This document shows, one piece after another, positions 22,839 to 58,191 of a DNA stretch of 64,000 nucleotides. The DNA is from Lysobacter concretionis Ko07 = DSM 16239 (GTDB lineage Bacteria; Pseudomonadota; Gammaproteobacteria; Xanthomonadales; Xanthomonadaceae): the NCBI RefSeq assembly GCF_000768345.1, contig NZ_AVPS01000010.1:57567-121566 (forward strand), written 5' to 3'. The position numbers were made by a program, and so were the translations under genes. The number at the start of each line of letters is the position of its first letter. Position 1 is the stretch's first letter. The notes under the pieces were generated by a model. It was not told where the DNA came from and searched no databases. It saw nothing but the letters and a program-made list of their open reading frames with translations.

Positions 22839-23411
22839 CTGGCAACAGCAACAGCAACAGCAACAGCGGAGCGGGATGTAGCGAGGGCTTCGGATGCAGC
22901 GTCGCCCTGTCGGGGTGCTTGCTGCCCGGTTCGAGCAGCCCGCTCCGCGGCCCGGTCCGGCGCAGCGCACCGGCCGTTCGCGCAGGCGCGCGGCAGTGCC
23001 GCGCAAGCCGCCTGCACTCACCCATGCCCGTACTCACCGCCGCAGGCCACGGCGGAAAATCCGCATGGCTGCTGTTCGGCCACCGAGAAATTTCGGCAGG
23101 CGCCGCCTGCGCCATCCAAGCCCCATGGCTCTGGGCTCGGCCCGGGACAAAGGCCGTCGCTTATTGGCATCGGGACCACGTGTACTTGAGCGCGCTGCAA
23201 CGTTACTGCGGTCGAAAAGGCCCGCCAGCTTTTGTTCTTCCTTCGACCAGCGAGAAATTCCGGTGGCGCCTGTCGGGTGTCCCGATCACCAAGCGAATAT
23301 CGTGGAGCGACTGATCGGGATACCCGACAGGCGCAGCCTCCTTCCTCACGCGCTCGGCTCTGACTTACCGACTCAGGCAGACGCTATTTCATATGCTGGC
23401 ACCGGGCAGGT
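22839..23411. other. Gene-free hairpin-rich interval
   Basis: I see no credible gene in these 573 bases. They hold AACAGC four times at 22844-22867, a GCGCGGC/GCCGCGC hairpin at 22987-23004, a repeated motif CGAGAAATTYCGG followed by GGCGCC at 23084-23109 and 23251-23270, and a long inverted repeat at 23266-23334. Short open frames here are low-complexity and mutually overlapping. Confidence 0.6.
23266..23334. repeat. 23-base inverted repeat with 23-base loop
   Basis: The arm at 23266-23288 (starting GCGCCTGTCGGGTG) pairs with 23312-23334 (ending CCCGACAGGCGC) at 22 of 23 positions. No T-run follows, so it is not a standard terminator. It lies between the ligase gene and the converging acyltransferase gene. 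Confidence 0.85.
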
Positions 23412-30277: not shown

Positions 30278-33200
30278 ATGCGATTCAATCTTTCCGAGTG
30301 GGCCCTCCGACACCGCAGCCTGGTGGTGTACGCGATGCTGGTGCTGGCGATCGCCGGTGCGTTTTCCTACCTGAAACTGGGTCGCAGCGAGGACCCGGCG
30401 TTCACCTTCAAGGTGATGGTCGTCCACACCGTCTGGCCCGGCGCCACCGCCGAGCAGGTCGGCCGGCAGGTCACCGAGCGGATCGAGCGCAAGCTGATGC
30501 AGACCGGCGAGTACGAGTTCATCCGCTCGTATTCGCGTGCCGGCGAATCGCAGGTGATCTTCGCCGCGCGCGACTCGATGCGCTCGGCCGAGATCCCCGA
30601 GCTGTTCTACCAGGTGCGCAAGAAGGTCGCGGACCTGCGGCCGGAGCTGCCGGCGGACATCGTCGGACCGTTCTTCAATGACGAGTTCGGCGACACCTTC
30701 GGCAACATCTACGCGCTGACCGGCAAGGGGTTCGATTACGCAGTGCTGAAGGACTACGCCGACCGCGTCCAGCTGGCGCTGCAGGACCTTCCCGACGTCG
30801 GCAAGATCGAGCTGTTCGGCCTGCAGGACGAGAAGGTCTGGATCGAGCTGTCGAACACCAAGCTGGCCACGCTCGGGGTGTCGGCCGCGGCGGTGCAGGA
30901 CGCGTTGCAGCAGCAGAATGCGGTGGTGCCGGCCGGTTTCTTCGAGACCCCGGGCAGCCGGGTGCCGTTGCGGGTGAGCGGGCAGTTCCAGTCGGTCGAG
31001 CAGATCCGCGAGTTCCCGATCCGGGTCGGCGACCGCACCTTCCTGCTGGGCGACGTGGCGACGGTCGAGCGTGGCTTTTCCGACCCGCCGCAGCCGGGCA
31101 TGCGCTTCATGGGCGAGGACGCGATCGGCATCGGCGTGGCGATGCGCGATGGCGGTGACATCCTCGCGCTGGGCAAGACCCTGGAAGCCGAGTTTTCCGA
31201 ACTGCAACGCACCCTGCCGGCCGGGATGGCACTGCACAAGGTGTCCGACCAGCCGGCCGCGGTGCAGGACTCGGTCGGCGAGTTCGTACGCGTGCTTGCC
31301 GAGGCGGTCGCGATCGTGCTGCTGGTGAGCTTCCTGTCGCTGGGCCTGCGCACCGGGCTGGTGGTCGCGCTGTCGATCCCGCTGGTGCTGGCGATGACCT
31401 TCACCGTGATGGAGATCCTCGGCGTCGGCCTGCACAAGATCTCGCTGGGCGCGCTGGTGCTGGCGCTGGGGTTGATGGTCGACGACGCGATCATCGCGGT
31501 GGAGATGATGGCGATCAAGATGGAGCAGGGCTTCGACCGCCTGAAGGCGGCGGCGTTCGCGTGGGAGTCGACCGCGTTCCCGATGCTGACCGGCACCCTG
31601 ATCACCGCGGCGGGCTTCCTGCCGATCGCGACCGCGGCGTCCAGCACCGGCGAGTACACCCGCTCGCTGTTCGAGGTGGTGACGATCGCGCTGCTGGTGT
31701 CGTGGGTCGCGGCGGTGGTGTTCGTGCCCTATCTGGGCGACAAGCTGCTGCCGCATATCGAGCGCGGCGCGAACGGGCACCCGGTCGCGCCGAAGCCCGG
31801 CTCGCTGGCCGCGCGCTGGCAGGCGCGGCGGCACCGTTGGGCGGACCGCCATCCGGCGTTCGCCGATGTGATCGCGCCATTGCCGAAGGATCACAGCCAC
31901 GCGCACGACCCGTACGGCACCCGGTTCTACCAGCGCTTCCGCAGCTGGGTGATCTGGTGCGTGCGCCATCGCTGGCTGGTCATCGCGATCACCGTCGCGG
32001 CGTTCGTCGCCTCGCTGCTGATGTTCCGTTTCGTGCCGCAGCAATTCTTCCCCGACTCGGTGCGGCCGGAACTGATGGTCGACATGGAGCTGGCCGAAGG
32101 CAGCTCGCTGCGCGCGACCCGGACGCAGGCCGAGCGGCTGGAAGCACTGCTCGCCACTCGCAAGGACCTGGTCAACTACACCGCCTACGTCGGCACCGGT
32201 TCGCCGCGCTTCTACCTGCCGCTGGACCAGCAGTTGCCGGCGGCCAACTTCGCCCAGTTCGTGCTGATGCCCGAAAGCCTGGAAGCGCGCGAGCAGTTGC
32301 GCAGCTGGATGATCGAGGAAGTCGTGCCGCGCTTCCCCGAGCTGCAATTGCGCGTGACGCGGCTGGAGAACGGGCCGCCGGTCGGCTACCCGGTGCAGTT
32401 CCGCGTCTCCGGCGAGCACATCGACCAGGTGCGCCGGATCGCCTACGCCGTGCGTGAGGAAATCCGCAGGAACCCGCACGTCGCCAACGTCAACCTGGAC
32501 TGGGACGAGCCGGGCAAGGTGGTGCGTTTGCAGGTCGACCAGGCCCGCGCGCGTGCGCTCGGCATCAGCTCGGCGCAACTGGCCAAGGTGCTCGGCGGGT
32601 CGCTGTCGGGCATCCAGGTCAGCACCTACCGCGAGGGCAACGAGCTGATCGGGATGATGCTGCGCGGCGGCGAGGCCGAGCCGATTGCGCTGGACCAGCT
32701 CGGCAGCCTCATGGTGCCCACAGCCAGCGGCCAGAGCGTGCCGTTGTCGCAGGTGGCGACGCTCGAATACGGCTTCGAGGAAGGCATCATCTGGCACCGC
32801 GACCGCAAGCCGACGATGACCGTACGCGCCGACATCTACGACGGCACCCAGCCGGCGTCGGTGATGGCGCAGATCTCGCCGAACCTGGACGGCATCCGCG
32901 CCGACCTCCCCTATGGCTACTCCGTGGACATCGGCGGCAGCGTGGAGGATTCCACCCGCGGCCAGGACTCGATCGCCGCCGGCGTGCCGCTGTTCCTGTT
33001 CGTCGTGTTCACCCTGCTGATGCTGCAGCTGCGCAGTTTCTCGCGCAGCATCATGGTGCTGCTGACCGCGCCGCTGGGGCTGATCGGGGTGACCCTGTTC
33101 CTGCTGGTGTTCCGGGTGCCGTTTGGCTTCGTGGCGATGCTGGGCACGATCGCGCTGTCGGGGATGATCATGCGCAACTCGGTGATCCTGGTCGACCAGA

Positions 33201-33457
33201 TCGAGCAGGACCGGCGCGACGGGCACGAGACCTGGGACGCGATCGTGGAGGCGACCGTGCGCCGGTTCCGGCCGATCGTGCTGACCGCGCTGGCGGCGAT
33301 CCTGGCGATGATCCCGCTCTCGCGCAGCGCATTCTTCGGCCCGATGGCGACGGCGATCATGGGCGGCCTGCTGGTGGCCACCGTGCTGACCCTGCTGTTC
33401 CTGCCGGCGCTGTATGCGGCGTGGTTCCGGGTCAAGGTACCGCAGGAACTGCAATAG
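30278..33457 (+). CDS. RND family efflux pump permease (AcrB/MmtS-like)
   Basis: The 1059-residue inner membrane transporter has the RND topology: a first membrane helix at about 15-33, a large periplasmic domain, helices 2-6, a second periplasmic domain and helices 8-12. The proton-relay Asp pair is in helix 4 (LGLMVDDAIIAVEMM, near residue 400). It would drive drug or metabolite export with the adaptor lipoprotein encoded upstream. Substrate specificity cannot be read from the sequence. Gene order regulator-adaptor-permease is typical; the channel may be the nearby tolC product. Confidence 0.95.
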   Translation: MRFNLSEWALRHRSLVVYAMLVLAIAGAFSYLKLGRSEDPAFTFKVMVVHTVWPGATAEQVGRQVTERIERKLMQTGEYEFIRSYSRAGESQVIFAARDSMRSAEIPELFYQVRKKVADLRPELPADIVGPFFNDEFGDTFGNIYALTGKGFDYAVLKDYADRVQLALQDLPDVGKIELFGLQDEKVWIELSNTKLATLGVSAAAVQDALQQQNAVVPAGFFETPGSRVPLRVSGQFQSVEQIREFPIRVGDRTFLLGDVATVERGFSDPPQPGMRFMGEDAIGIGVAMRDGGDILALGKTLEAEFSELQRTLPAGMALHKVSDQPAAVQDSVGEFVRVLAEAVAIVLLVSFLSLGLRTGLVVALSIPLVLAMTFTVMEILGVGLHKISLGALVLALGLMVDDAIIAVEMMAIKMEQGFDRLKAAAFAWESTAFPMLTGTLITAAGFLPIATAASSTGEYTRSLFEVVTIALLVSWVAAVVFVPYLGDKLLPHIERGANGHPVAPKPGSLAARWQARRHRWADRHPAFADVIAPLPKDHSHAHDPYGTRFYQRFRSWVIWCVRHRWLVIAITVAAFVASLLMFRFVPQQFFPDSVRPELMVDMELAEGSSLRATRTQAERLEALLATRKDLVNYTAYVGTGSPRFYLPLDQQLPAANFAQFVLMPESLEAREQLRSWMIEEVVPRFPELQLRVTRLENGPPVGYPVQFRVSGEHIDQVRRIAYAVREEIRRNPHVANVNLDWDEPGKVVRLQVDQARARALGISSAQLAKVLGGSLSGIQVSTYREGNELIGMMLRGGEAEPIALDQLGSLMVPTASGQSVPLSQVATLEYGFEEGIIWHRDRKPTMTVRADIYDGTQPASVMAQISPNLDGIRADLPYGYSVDIGGSVEDSTRGQDSIAAGVPLFLFVVFTLLMLQLRSFSRSIMVLLTAPLGLIGVTLFLLVFRVPFGFVAMLGTIALSGMIMRNSVILVDQIEQDRRDGHETWDAIVEATVRRFRPIVLTALAAILAMIPLSRSAFFGPMATAIMGGLLVATVLTLLFLPALYAAWFRVKVPQELQ

Positions 33458-33474
33458 AAACAAAAAGGTTCATC

Positions 33475-33497
33475 TCCCGACTCCGGGGAAGTCGGGA
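33475..33497. repeat. Hairpin after the RND permease gene
   Basis: TCCCGACT at 33475-33482 and AGTCGGGA at 33490-33497 form an 8-base stem 18 bases after the permease stop. No T-run follows, so termination without Rho is doubtful. Confidence 0.55.
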
Positions 33498-33513
33498 AGA
33501 CGGGCCGGGGCGC

Positions 33514-33600
33514 GACCTGCAGGCCTTCGCGGCGAATGTCCCCCGGCCCCGCCTGCGGCGGACGCCTCCCCCTTTATTTCGCCCCGAAGGCCTGCAGGTC
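33514..33600 (+). repeat. Palindromic element, copy 1 (core with inverted arms)
   Basis: A perfect 16-base inverted repeat (GACCTGCAGGCCTTCG at 33514-33529; its complement at 33585-33600) encloses a core reading CGAATGTCCCCCGGC, a CCGCC-TG-CGGCGG hairpin, then CCTCCCCCTTTATTTC. The core recurs in opposite orientation in copy 2 at 33691-33772, but the arms differ completely. Confidence 0.8.
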
Positions 33601-33690
33601 ACGTCGGTGCTGTCGGATCGCAGAGGTACGCGGACAGCCCGGCAGCCGGGCCTGCGCTTCTGGAACCCCCGCCACGCTGGAACGACGGGT

Positions 33691-33772
33691 GCGAATGCCC
33701 TTGGGTGTGAAATAAAGGAGGAGGCACCGGCTTCATCGGTGCCGGGGGACATTCGCACACAAGGGCATTCGC
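33691..33772 (-). repeat. Palindromic element, copy 2 (inverted relative to copy 1)
   Basis: Arms GCGAATGCCCTTGGGTGTG (33691-33709) and 33756-33772 pair with one or two mismatches. On the minus strand they enclose the same core as copy 1: CGAATGTCCCCCGGC, a GGCACC/GGTGCC hairpin, then CCTCCTCCTTTATTTC. The two copies and their 90-base spacer make one 259-base compound structure. No gene is convincing in 33458-33891. Confidence 0.8.
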
Positions 33773-33833
33773 TCCCGGCACCCCGGCCACCCCGCAGATG
33801 TCGCGCTTTCCCCTTGGATGGGAGAAGAACCAA

Positions 33834-33861
33834 TAAAAAGGCGGCCCGTCGAGGGCCGCCC
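33834..33861 (-). terminator. Intrinsic terminator of the 33892-34542 gene
   Basis: On the minus strand GGGCGGCCC, a short loop and GGGCCGCC are followed by TTTTTATT, about 30 bases after the lipoprotein stop codon. Confidence 0.9.
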
Positions 33862-33891
33862 TGATGTGTGTCGCCGTGTCGATGCGCCGTG

Positions 33892-34542
33892 TCAGTCGGC
33901 GGCACCCCACGGGGCCGGCGGCGCGTCGATGGGCCGGGTGAGGTCGAAGCGCACGCGGAACAGGCGGTCGGTGTCGGTGCGTGCCAGTTCGTAGGTGTAG
34001 TGCACGTCCGGCTCGATCTCGATCGCCCAGGCGTTGGTGTTGGATACCTGCATGCCTTCGCGGGTGAACATTTCCTGCGAGAACGCGTCCACCGGGAACT
34101 CCTGGCGGTTGGCGGTGCCCTCGGCTGCGGTGTCGCCGCCGTACATGGTGACCGGGTCGTCGCTGCCGTCGGCCAGGCGGTGGTCGTGCTTCAGGCGCAG
34201 GCCGTCACCGGTGCGGGTGACGATCCAGGTGCGCGAGCGGTCCTCGCCGACGTGGAACGGGATCTTGATCTCCTGCTCGCTGCATTCGCGCACGTGCATC
34301 ACCAGGGCCTGGTCGGCGAACGGGTTGGGGCCGGTGCTGCCGGGACGGTCGACCTCGACCTCGCCGGCGAAGGCCTGGCCGCACAGGGCGGTCAGGTGAT
34401 TGAAGAACGCGTCCCGGGGCGTGGTGGACGCCGAGGGCGCGGAGGTGGCAGCGGCCTCCGGCGCGGTGGTGGGCGCGGGTGTGCAGGCGGACAGGACGAC
34501 GGCAAGCGCCGTGGCGAGGATGGGGAGCTGGATTCTATTCAT
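33892..34542 (-). CDS. Putative lipoprotein of unknown function
   Basis: The 216-residue protein has a lipoprotein signal with lipobox LSAC (Cys20), followed by a Pro/Ala/Thr-rich tether (about 21-42) and a single globular domain with Cys residues at LTALCGQAF and HVRECSEQ that may form a disulfide. The motif FHVGEDRSRTWIVTRTGDGL is conspicuous, but I do not recognise a named family. It should be anchored in the periplasm or outer membrane. It is a single-gene unit ending at its own terminator. Confidence 0.8.
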   Translation of the reverse strand: MNRIQLPILATALAVVLSACTPAPTTAPEAAATSAPSASTTPRDAFFNHLTALCGQAFAGEVEVDRPGSTGPNPFADQALVMHVRECSEQEIKIPFHVGEDRSRTWIVTRTGDGLRLKHDHRLADGSDDPVTMYGGDTAAEGTANRQEFPVDAFSQEMFTREGMQVSNTNAWAIEIEPDVHYTYELARTDTDRLFRVRFDLTRPIDAPPAPWGAAD

Positions 34543-34606
34543 CCACCGACGCTAACCGCCGCGGGCGCAAATGCCAACCGGACAGGCCTTGCCGATGCTC
34601 AATATG

Positions 34607-35563
34607 TCAGTCCAGCAGTTCCGCACGCGGGCCGTTGATCGGCGACACCCAGGCGTCGCTGCCCAGCCCCGCGTCGGCGAACGCGGCCTGCATCGCGCGG
34701 GCCGCAGCGCTTGCGTCGGCCGAGTCGTCGAACCAGCCGAACACACTCGGTCCGGCCCCGGAGATGCTCGCCCCCAGCGCGCCGTGGGCCAGCGCCGCAG
34801 CCTGCACGCCGGCGAAGCCCGGGATCAACGCGGCCCGGCGAGGCTCGACCAGCACGTCGCGCAACCCGGCCGCGATCAGTTCACGGTCGCCGCGCGCCAG
34901 GCCGGTCAGGAACAGCGCGAGGTATTCGCTCTGGCGGGCGAACTCGCCGATCCGGTACGGCGCGACCAGCGCCTCGCGCGACCGCCTGGTTTCCAGCACG
35001 TAGTGGGGGTGTACCACCGCGCAATACAGCGGCGGCGCAGGCAACGCAATCACCCGCGTGCGGGTCGCCAACACCACGCCACCGAACAGCATCGGTCCGA
35101 CGTTGTCGCCCTGCAGGCTGTTGCTGGCGACCGACTCGCCCACCAGTGCCGCCGGATACAGCTGCTCGCGGCTCAGCGGGGCATCGAGCACGTGGTTGGC
35201 GGCGACCAGGGCGGCCACGGCGGAGGCCGCCGAACCGCCCAGCCCGGAGCCCAGCGCGATGCCCTTGTGCAGCCAAAGCTCGAAGCCATGCGTGATCCCG
35301 TGCTCCTCGCGCAGCGCGATCAGCGCGCGCCCGGCGGTGTTCAGAGCGGGCTCCAGCGGCAGGTCGCCGGTGCCCGCGCTGTCGCCGTCGATCGCGACGA
35401 TGCGGACCGTCGGTGCATCGATGCGACGCACCGTGGCGCGGTCGCCCGGCCCGTGGATGCTGTGCCCGAGCAGGTCGAAGCCGACCCCGATGTTGCCCAC
35501 GCCGGCCGGGGCGAAGGCGCTCGCCTGGCGTGCCGGTCGGTTTCCCTGTTGTGCCATCGACAT
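34607..35563 (-). CDS. thrB: Homoserine kinase (GHMP type)
   Basis: The 318-residue enzyme phosphorylates homoserine in threonine biosynthesis. GHMP motifs are clear: [17 protein letters not shown] at residues 16-32, the ATP-binding [16 protein letters not shown] near residue 95, and [12 protein letters not shown] near the C-terminus. The start at 35563 (MSMAQQG) follows GCGGAGC; the ATG at 35557 is nearly equivalent. In many gammaproteobacteria thrB lies between thrA and thrC; neither is adjacent here, so the operon is split. It is divergent from thiC, with the TPP riboswitch between. Confidence 0.94.
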
Positions 35564-57375: not shown

Positions 57376-58191
57376 ATGTCCACCCTGTCCGGCAAGACCC
57401 TGTTCATCACTGGTGCCTCGCGTGGGATCGGCCGTGCGATCGCGCTGCGCGCCGCGCGCGACGGCGCCAACATCGCGATCGCCTCCAAATCCTCCGTGCC
57501 CAATCCGAAGCTGCCGGGCACCATCCACACCGTCGCCGCCGAGGTCGAGGCCGCTGGCGGCCAGGCGCTGGCGCTGCAATGCGACATCCGCGAGGAGGAG
57601 CAGGTCCGCGCGGCGGTCGCAGCCACGGTGGATGCGTTCGGCGGTATCGACATCCTGGTCAACAACGCCAGTGCGATCTGGCTGCGCGGCACGCTGGACA
57701 CGCCGATGAAGCGGTTCGACCTGATGCAGCAGGTCAACGCGCGTGGCAGTTTCCTGTGCGCGCAGGCGTGCCTGCCGTACCTGCTGCAATCGCCCAATCC
57801 GCACATCCTCAGCCTGGCGCCGCCGCCCAGCCTGGACCCGAAATGGTGGGCGCCGCACACCGGCTACACGCTGGCGAAGATGGGCATGAGTTTCGTGACG
57901 ATCGGGCTGGCGGCGGAGTTCGGTCCGCAGGGCGTCGCGGTCAACGCGCTGTGGCCGCGCACGATCATCGCCACCGATGCGCTCAACATGATTCCCGGCA
58001 TCGACACCGCCGGTTGCCGCAAGCCGGACATCGTCGCCGACGCCGCCCACGCGGTGCTGGTGCGCGAGGCGGCGGGTTTCCACGGCCGGTTCCTGATCGA
58101 CGAAGACGTGCTGGTCGAGGCGGGCGTCGCGGATTTTTCCGGCTATGCGGTCGATCCCACCCAGCCACTGCTGCCTGACCTGTTCCTGTGA
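57376..58191 (+). CDS. HSDL2-like short-chain dehydrogenase/reductase
   Basis: The 271-residue SDR has the NAD(P)-binding [16 protein letters not shown] (12-27), the NNAS motif near residue 97, and the Y-x3-K catalytic pair in [12 protein letters not shown] near residue 162. The [12 protein letters not shown] stretch before the Tyr is characteristic of the hydroxysteroid-dehydrogenase-like-2 branch, probably acting on fatty-acyl or sterol-type substrates. CAGGAG 6 bases before the ATG at 57376 sets the start. The glyoxalase gene follows by 94 bases. Confidence 0.9.

Follow-up and report, generated by a model that had tools for sequence, protein, structure and literature searches.

The genome of Lysobacter concretionis Ko07 (= DSM 16239; assembly GCF_000768345.1) harbours two palindromes, here called E1 and E2, that lie in opposite orientation in the 64,000-nucleotide stretch of contig NZ_AVPS01000010.1 analysed here (positions 57,567 to 121,566 of the forward strand; hereafter 'the window'). 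Together, as half A (on the plus strand) and half B (on the minus strand), E1 and E2 make up one repeat module that resides inside a 365-bp, gene-less and non-autonomous element. Taken as a whole, we consider it probable that a non-autonomous element with ends of the ISL3 insertion sequence (IS) family sits in a transcription terminator, and that the purine strand of its paired module, by prediction, works as a folded single strand. The insertion part of this explanation, an ISL3-type element in a terminator T-tract, is very likely correct; a role of the module as RNA is a tentative proposal that we rate somewhat below an even chance, and a role as single-stranded DNA (ssDNA) during transposition is possible as well. 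A preliminary description of the window had drawn attention to the two palindromes and missed that both are parts of a single mobile unit that has ISL3-type ends and is flanked by a target repeat.

The paired module and the unit that carries it

The inverted pair of palindromes with a common core was correctly placed in the preliminary description; each measures about 93 nt (E1 ~33511-33603, E2 ~33686-33777; Table 1) and comprises an outer stem and an inner hairpin with a conserved internal loop between them. As ssDNA, E1 folds with -34.8 kcal/mol (z -5.7) and E2 with -29.5 kcal/mol (z -7.5), values that none of 200 shuffled sequences equalled. With up to two mismatches allowed, the window holds two matches to the right half of the core compared to 0.01 in shuffled sequence; the left half alone matches twice against 1.17 expected, which is within chance. 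The full core pattern is present in 18 exact copies in the 3.03-Mb L. concretionis (host) genome, where the reversed control pattern has none, and in at least 118 stretches of named genomes, in keeping with the proposal that the palindromes belong to a real family with further copies. The arms of E1 and E2 are, as had been noticed, unrelated to each other; they are not unique to each copy, however, but group into types, A (that of E1), B (that of E2) and a rarer third (locus L014), and these types drift. Chimeric arms of two types occur in L012 of the host and in L050. L011 and L012 belong to a three-core cluster (G000:C23:76059-76440) whose middle copy combines a type A left arm with a type B right arm, and at L007 (G000:C20:452812-452853) the B core is inverted within its arms and flanks and A is mostly deleted, which denotes an inversion inside the palindrome. 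Elsewhere in the window, positions 23265-23339 of the minus strand give a weak covariance-model match (24.2 bits, E-value 0.0015) in which the hairpin is present and the core is not.

The boundaries of the unit emerge from an alignment of the host copies, in which A, a spacer and, on the opposite strand, B follow one another and are together enclosed by outer ends. The end motif GGTTCWTCTCCC has 15 exact matches in the genome, all 15 of them inside copies of the unit, some partial. Seven host copies possess both ends and measure 365, 238, 369, 365, 138, 364 and 350 bp; their flanking target repeats agree at 7, 8, 6, 7, 8, 7 and 7 of 8 positions, a mean of 7.14 within a copy vs 2.38 for pairs across copies, and in a permutation test on a 9-base version of the repeat the true pairing alone reaches the observed score (1/5040). 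The 138-bp copy, which has both ends and a perfect repeat and no core, reads as an internal deletion. Over its full length the window unit is 95% identical to the host copy at L015 and 93% identical to that at L009, and the host subfamily is therefore recent. No transposase gene is found in the unit, and its 365 bp are far below the size of the ISL3 transposase genes found (413-418 aa). By the sequence features testable here, the element in this genome is a miniature inverted-repeat transposable element (MITE) of the ISL3 family.

Table 1. Coordinates of the element, its parts and the adjoining terminator in the window
Feature	Position	Strand	Remark
Left 8-bp target repeat AACAAAAA	33459..33466	.	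7/8 identical to right copy
Whole non-autonomous element, 365 bp, ends GGTTCATCTCCC (left) / GGGAGAAGAACC (right)	33467..33831	+	From host-copy alignment
Left ISL3-type end	33467..33494	+	
Paired double-hairpin module, closed by GGCCGGGGCGC / GCACCCCGGCC	33503..33788	+	~33507-33791 recurs in congeners
Double hairpin A (E1)	33511..33603	-	Purine-core strand is minus; 86.5 bits on minus, from a covariance model with E1 and E2 themselves in its alignment
Core of A: GTCCCCCGGC, inner hairpin, CCTCCCCCTTTATTTC	33538..33580	+	As read in the preliminary description
A-B spacer with own predicted hairpin	33604..33685	+	
Double hairpin B (E2)	33686..33777	+	Purine-core strand is plus; 89.9 bits on plus, same model
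Core of B: GAAATAAAGGAGGAGG, inner hairpin, GGGGGACATTC	33709..33754	+	
Right ISL3-type end	33804..33831	-	
Right 8-bp target repeat AATAAAAA	33832..33839	.	
Intrinsic-terminator-like hairpin of convergent gene (33892-34542, -)	33838..33862	-	Its T-tract is the target

Arm covariation and the strand apparently under selection

The arms of the two elements were said to differ in sequence and yet to stay paired. This holds across 13 arm types, in each of which the own right arm is the best partner, and breaks down in the chimeric L012 and L050; among the 18 host copies, where arms are shared, the own right arm is best in only three, and one copy pairs poorly. In a set of 35 diverse elements 91.1% of the cells pair on the purine strand, compared to 62.5% in shuffled and 37-41% in slid controls, and cells in which both sides have changed number 297 vs 85.6 (shuffled) and 70-86 (slid); the covariation score is 0.727 vs 0.185. 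The pyrimidine strand of a nearly equal set pairs in 85.3% of cells and scores 0.571. Compensated changes are also apparent within a single type, affecting 17 of 30 predicted pairs in the type B copies (n = 33). From an initial set of 35 diverse elements, alignment A2 takes 33, without L045 and the chimeric L050, plus L014 and E1; alignment A3 takes 32, additionally without L040 with its right-arm deletion, plus L014, E1 and E2; alignment A1 holds 33 of the 34 B copies, without the L011/L012 chimera.

The mismatches that persist in the stems discriminate between the two strands. On the pyrimidine strand of 216 elements with at least 14 of 22 Watson-Crick pairs, C.A/A.C mismatches number 372, G.T/T.G 24, C.T/T.C 308 and G.A/A.G 10; the same classes number 90, 10, 36 and 2 in the host-genus subset (n = 73), the remaining 143 elements including a few named Lysobacter loci. 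Because a C.A on the pyrimidine strand is a G.U (or G.T) on the purine-core strand, the fold would be kept on the latter; symmetric mutation would yield C.A and G.T in equal numbers. The counts are not independent events, since two columns give 136 of the 282 C.A mismatches in the 143 other elements and fixed Burkholderiales mismatches give most of the C.T, and the excess of C.A over G.T is found at nearly every stem depth. The purine strand also has the more stable RNA fold in 191 of 211 elements. The covariation and the strand bias together agree with the suggestion that the structure is selected, and the purine-core single strand appears to be the selected one, as RNA or as ssDNA.

Arm pairing might alternatively be kept by mutation, if template switching during replication copied one arm of a palindrome onto the other. 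Such events do occur, as witnessed by the core of L007 that has flipped within its arms and by other copies without a palindrome, and on the pyrimidine strand compensated changes far exceed one-sided ones. Template switching nevertheless predicts similar numbers of C.A and G.T, at odds with the ratios of 372 to 24 overall and 90 to 10 in the host genus, and we regard it as very improbable.

Polarity and conservation of the core

Partners were also searched for as a 22-bp stem by pairing alone, the core not being required; this search grants C.A half credit and was for that reason kept out of the strand test. A pairing partner lies on the TTTATTTC side in 177 of 208 strict elements, 161 of them with the core, and on the other side in 16, none of them with the core. 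The conjecture that the core inserts into pre-existing palindromes finds no support in these figures; the coreless forms examined read as deletions, no dedicated search for coreless palindromes having been made. Neighbouring cores in the 118 loci are mostly arranged alike: 59 of 65 gaps run from a plus to a minus core over 107-166 nt.

The core could be placed in 195 of 199 partners, and its variation is confined mainly to four positions, GTCC[C 181/T 14]CC and TCC[T 183/C 7/G 5]CCTT[T 175/G 18/other 2]A[T 162/C 33]TT, all other positions being at least 98% conserved. On the purine strand the first two variable positions correspond to the N of two GGNGGA strings. A role for the resemblance of the core to the anti-Shine-Dalgarno tail of 16S, raised in the preliminary description, is not supported by these data: the purine-rich strand, and not the one with this resemblance, is singled out by the mismatch bias, and 12 of 195 partners vary at the middle base of GGNGG, a base required for a Shine-Dalgarno match.

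ISL3 as the probable mover and terminators as the target

ISL3 was first suspected from the letters of the ends, the 8-bp AT-rich repeats and the size, which we take to be features of this family. The host encodes one full-length ISL3 transposase (PF01610, E-value 2.3e-68) and its ISL3 IS measures 1308 bp, with ends GGTTCTTC and a perfect 8-bp repeat. A Stenotrophomonas-group genome (G150) holds five copies of a 1310-bp ISL3 IS with repeat matches of 8, 8, 8, 7 and 8; the ends of the unit agree with those of this IS at 23/28 and 23/28 positions in their own register and at 19 and 21 when crossed. One G150 copy (L318:1468-3082) lies in a T-tract, and a paired module begins ~40 nt past its end.

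A terminator-like hairpin adjoins 12 of 13 insertion sites under a lenient rule (6/7 units and 6/6 ISs) compared to 37% of the control, and at a hairpin score of at least 14 the figures are 9 of 13 vs 16%, the control being 4000 T-rich windows sampled from the loci and thus sharing loci with the insertion sites. An ISL3 enzyme, either the resident one or a lost relative, would have moved the unit in trans into the terminator T-tract. In the part of the text available to us, PMC11702846 describes an insertion with an 8-bp repeat and a terminal ISL3 element that disrupts an rRNA-operon terminator; that this case bears on the target choice of ISL3 may be so, and is our own reading.

Gene ends and a proposed working of the module

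Element clusters in the Lysobacter loci and two loci of a related genus, classed with a crude gene caller, lie between convergent genes in 36 cases, between tandem genes in 18, between divergent genes in one and inside an open reading frame (ORF) in four; the background over all loci is 160 convergent, 463 tandem and 83 divergent. Terminator targeting accounts for part of this bias. The module may act as a transcript 3' end element that is active in both directions: as A and B are inverted, read-through from either side would meet one double hairpin in its purine-strand form. Folded around the two GGNGGA strands, this double hairpin would protect the end of the transcript or regulate it. A more far-reaching version, possible in our view and on balance unlikely, sees the module as a class of structured nucleic acid that is new to description and occurs in Lysobacterales and Burkholderiales. 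It would be a double hairpin specific to one strand, with a conserved purine-rich GGNGGA junction, perhaps a two-layer G-quadruplex between duplexes; its arrangement as an inverted doublet would provide an active copy for either direction of transcription, and its spread would rely on unrelated ends taken over from transposons.

The gene-end location and the very stable folds would equally suit an ordinary bidirectional terminator or mRNA stabiliser devoid of any sequence-specific role. Such a device would not account for an internal loop whose sequence is conserved across orders while the stems drift, and neither A nor B was called in a terminator scan, its loop limit being such that hairpins of this size would be missed; we hold this explanation to be improbable.

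Spread of the module beyond the ISL3 vehicle

Among the matches listed, the core pattern occurs in Variovorax, Hydrogenophaga, Ramlibacter, Rhodoferax, Pseudorhodoferax, Lysobacter, Stenotrophomonas and one metagenome-assembled genome of Stagnimonas. Its distribution is patchy: the element is found in 5 of 10 genomes within the host genus, in 6 of 60 relatives when the host is counted, in 9 of 81 genomes of the Stenotrophomonas group and in 4 of 369 in a class-wide covariance-model scan, for which the filters were stricter and 10 candidates per genome were scored. No match was found in viral contigs with the strict pattern, nor in plasmids with one B-type core query. Judged by their flanks, many sites are common to congeners and several are found in the host only. 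Congener copies mostly match ~33507-33791 and lack the outer ends; in L153, L193 and L208 the alignment already starts at base 1 or 2 of the unit (71-73% identity), for which reason the ISL3-type ends may be old in this element family.

Units with TTC(A/G)GGG ends, mostly from Variovorax, possess no target repeat (26 units). Given these other ends and the missing repeat, we infer that the module can live without the ISL3 vehicle. At a Variovorax locus upstream of a putative glycerol kinase gene, a unit-containing 1401-nt query is matched whole in 9 of 61 genomes and many other genomes match it in two pieces without the unit, in both cases among the matches listed. At five unit-free loci of this type (L265, L269, L270, L271 and L283) the gap is filled by another G-rich inverted repeat (CCCTCCCC..GGGGAGGG..TGGGGTGGGGGCACG), and near the unit edges at L261, L116 and L256 the Variovorax-type ends recur outward as short GAACAACAGCGC / GCGCCCTGAACAA strings, akin to small tandem growth.

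The locus in relatives

The end of the RND gene that adjoins the unit is matched in all 10 genomes of the genus. In three congeners (G021, G017 and G015) both flanks are matched and the unit is absent, the flanks lying 27, 64 and 83 nt apart vs 449, 472 and 460 nt in the window; the junctions are too diverged to show an unduplicated target. In the remaining six congeners the two flanks are no longer side by side.

Observations that complicate the picture

A number of results weigh against a simple account of an ISL3-borne insertion with a selected purine strand. As regards the mover, the unit ends match those of the host ISL3 IS at only 17/28 and 16/28 positions, no better than the crossed values of 18 and 18, and the resident IS is thus not clearly the source of the unit. 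Of four element-bearing congeners, three contain no ISL3 and the fourth one match below the cut-off; among seven element-bearing Stenotrophomonas-group genomes ISL3 is found in G150 only, and seven Variovorax-group genomes give only partial PF01610 matches. Three units with candidate ends occur in the Stenotrophomonas and congener loci, and a convincing repeat is found only in L299 (7/8; the others 2/8). In the 26 Variovorax-type units no target repeat was found at any offset or length tried. With ISL3 so patchy and the Variovorax units without target repeats, ISL3 does not explain the wider spread of the module.

The history of the locus is likewise not simple. In G014, G019 and G020 and, by position, also in G013, the convergent gene has beside it a diverged module with 71-74% identity to that of the window; its orientation is unchanged and its left neighbour is different. 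The window unit is far closer to the other host copies, and so this gene end may have been hit repeatedly or an old copy may have been overwritten. These modules correspond to L169, L172 and L211 and to G013:C3:49731-50010, and in the first three of these the module comes after a terminator-like hairpin with a T-run.

The bias for gene ends may arise from terminator targeting alone, and outside the Lysobacter loci it is weak, with 21 convergent, 49 tandem and 9 divergent cases and 3 inside an ORF. Related copies inflate the counts of mismatches, of partners and of RNA stability, and the strand bias is no proof of RNA because ssDNA also tolerates G.T and G.A. RNAfold predicts a G-quadruplex in only 16 of the 199 purine strands and in none of the 199 pyrimidine strands, and the examples inspected do not use the expected GGNGG pairs; the quadruplex was rejected as a candidate.

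Comparison with known repeats and mobile elements

According to the available part of PMC10969869, bacterial MITEs derived from ISs resemble the element in having no gene, inverted ends, a target duplication, AT-rich intergenic targets, stable folds and several near-identical copies; unlike them, the element carries a paired module with a core common to two orders. A term search of the text of this review, as far as accessible, returned no ISL3. The unit shares both ends and the 8-bp AT-rich repeat with ISL3-family ISs (PF01610) and differs in lacking a transposase and in size (365 vs ~1310 bp). No Rfam family reaches threshold at 32000-35000, where the four matches are all far below the gathering score, consistent with the expectation that no existing repeat-family entry covers the core. 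Among the papers listed in literature searches on the core letters, judged by titles and abstract beginnings, none deals with bacterial repeats.

Like repetitive extragenic palindromes (REPs) and their inverted doublets (REPINs), which are associated with RAYT transposases, the module consists of intergenic palindromes in inverted pairs. In contrast, it measures ~90 nt per half rather than 20-40, has a conserved internal loop and no Y1 gene was found beside it; nor do the core letters contain the REP-defining GTAG (or CGTC) tag beside a 20-40 bp hairpin. Judging by these sequence features, the module is not a REP. The A/B pair could still be a REPIN-style doublet spread by a Y1 (HUH) tyrosine transposase that recognises an ssDNA hairpin, the ISL3 ends being an accident of one lineage. 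An ssDNA substrate would fit the strand bias equally well. A search for Y1 and RAYT genes that covered the host, 12 genomes with the element and 10 of the genus (one scan used a single RAYT query on part of the loci) speaks against it: the element is present in 0 of 21 Y1 loci by covariance model (gene plus ~1.5 kb on each side) and in 0 of 15 of these by motif, and Y1 genes are missing from 3 of 5 element-bearing genomes of the genus and present in 3 of 5 element-free ones. The single RAYT gene of the host adjoins, in our reading, a different, GTAG-type REP, an inverted pair of which (CGTAGGAGCGACGTCAGTCGCGAACG) lies at L019:1920-2035. Y1/RAYT as a mover was rejected for want of any association with the element, and a REPIN-like origin strikes us as rather unlikely.

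The terminal inverted repeats (TIRs) of TIRYT genes in Stenotrophomonas, as depicted in the available part of PMC3733652, are similar to the module in that they are self-complementary, paired at short distance and contain a GGGGAC-like string, a likeness by description and not by TIR sequence. Unlike the TIRs, the element was not found together with a Y1 gene. GGGGACAT falls short of the GGGGWSAS motif of the TIR, fitting it at 7 of 8 positions, and the element flanks none of the 21 Y1 loci, a set in which no genome bears the name S. maltophilia K279a. The module may be related to this self-complementary family of S. maltophilia. A quadruplex-forming repeat in Xanthomonas and Nostoc is the subject of PMC4692102.

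An autonomous version, with A and B placed around a gene, was also considered and rejected; the two halves in G019 are 2.7 kb apart and enclose ORFs that we read, without a domain search, as epimerase-like (sugar-nucleotide epimerase) and RadA-like, and no transposase.

Implications

The bias of C.A over G.T mismatches is a simple test of which strand is selected in repeated palindromes, and could be used on further bacterial repeats for which it is debated whether they function as RNA or as DNA. By settling in terminator T-tracts, an IS family and its gene-less derivative would land beside genes and not inside them, and a vehicle of the ISL3 type can carry a structure-selected module that is found in two bacterial orders.
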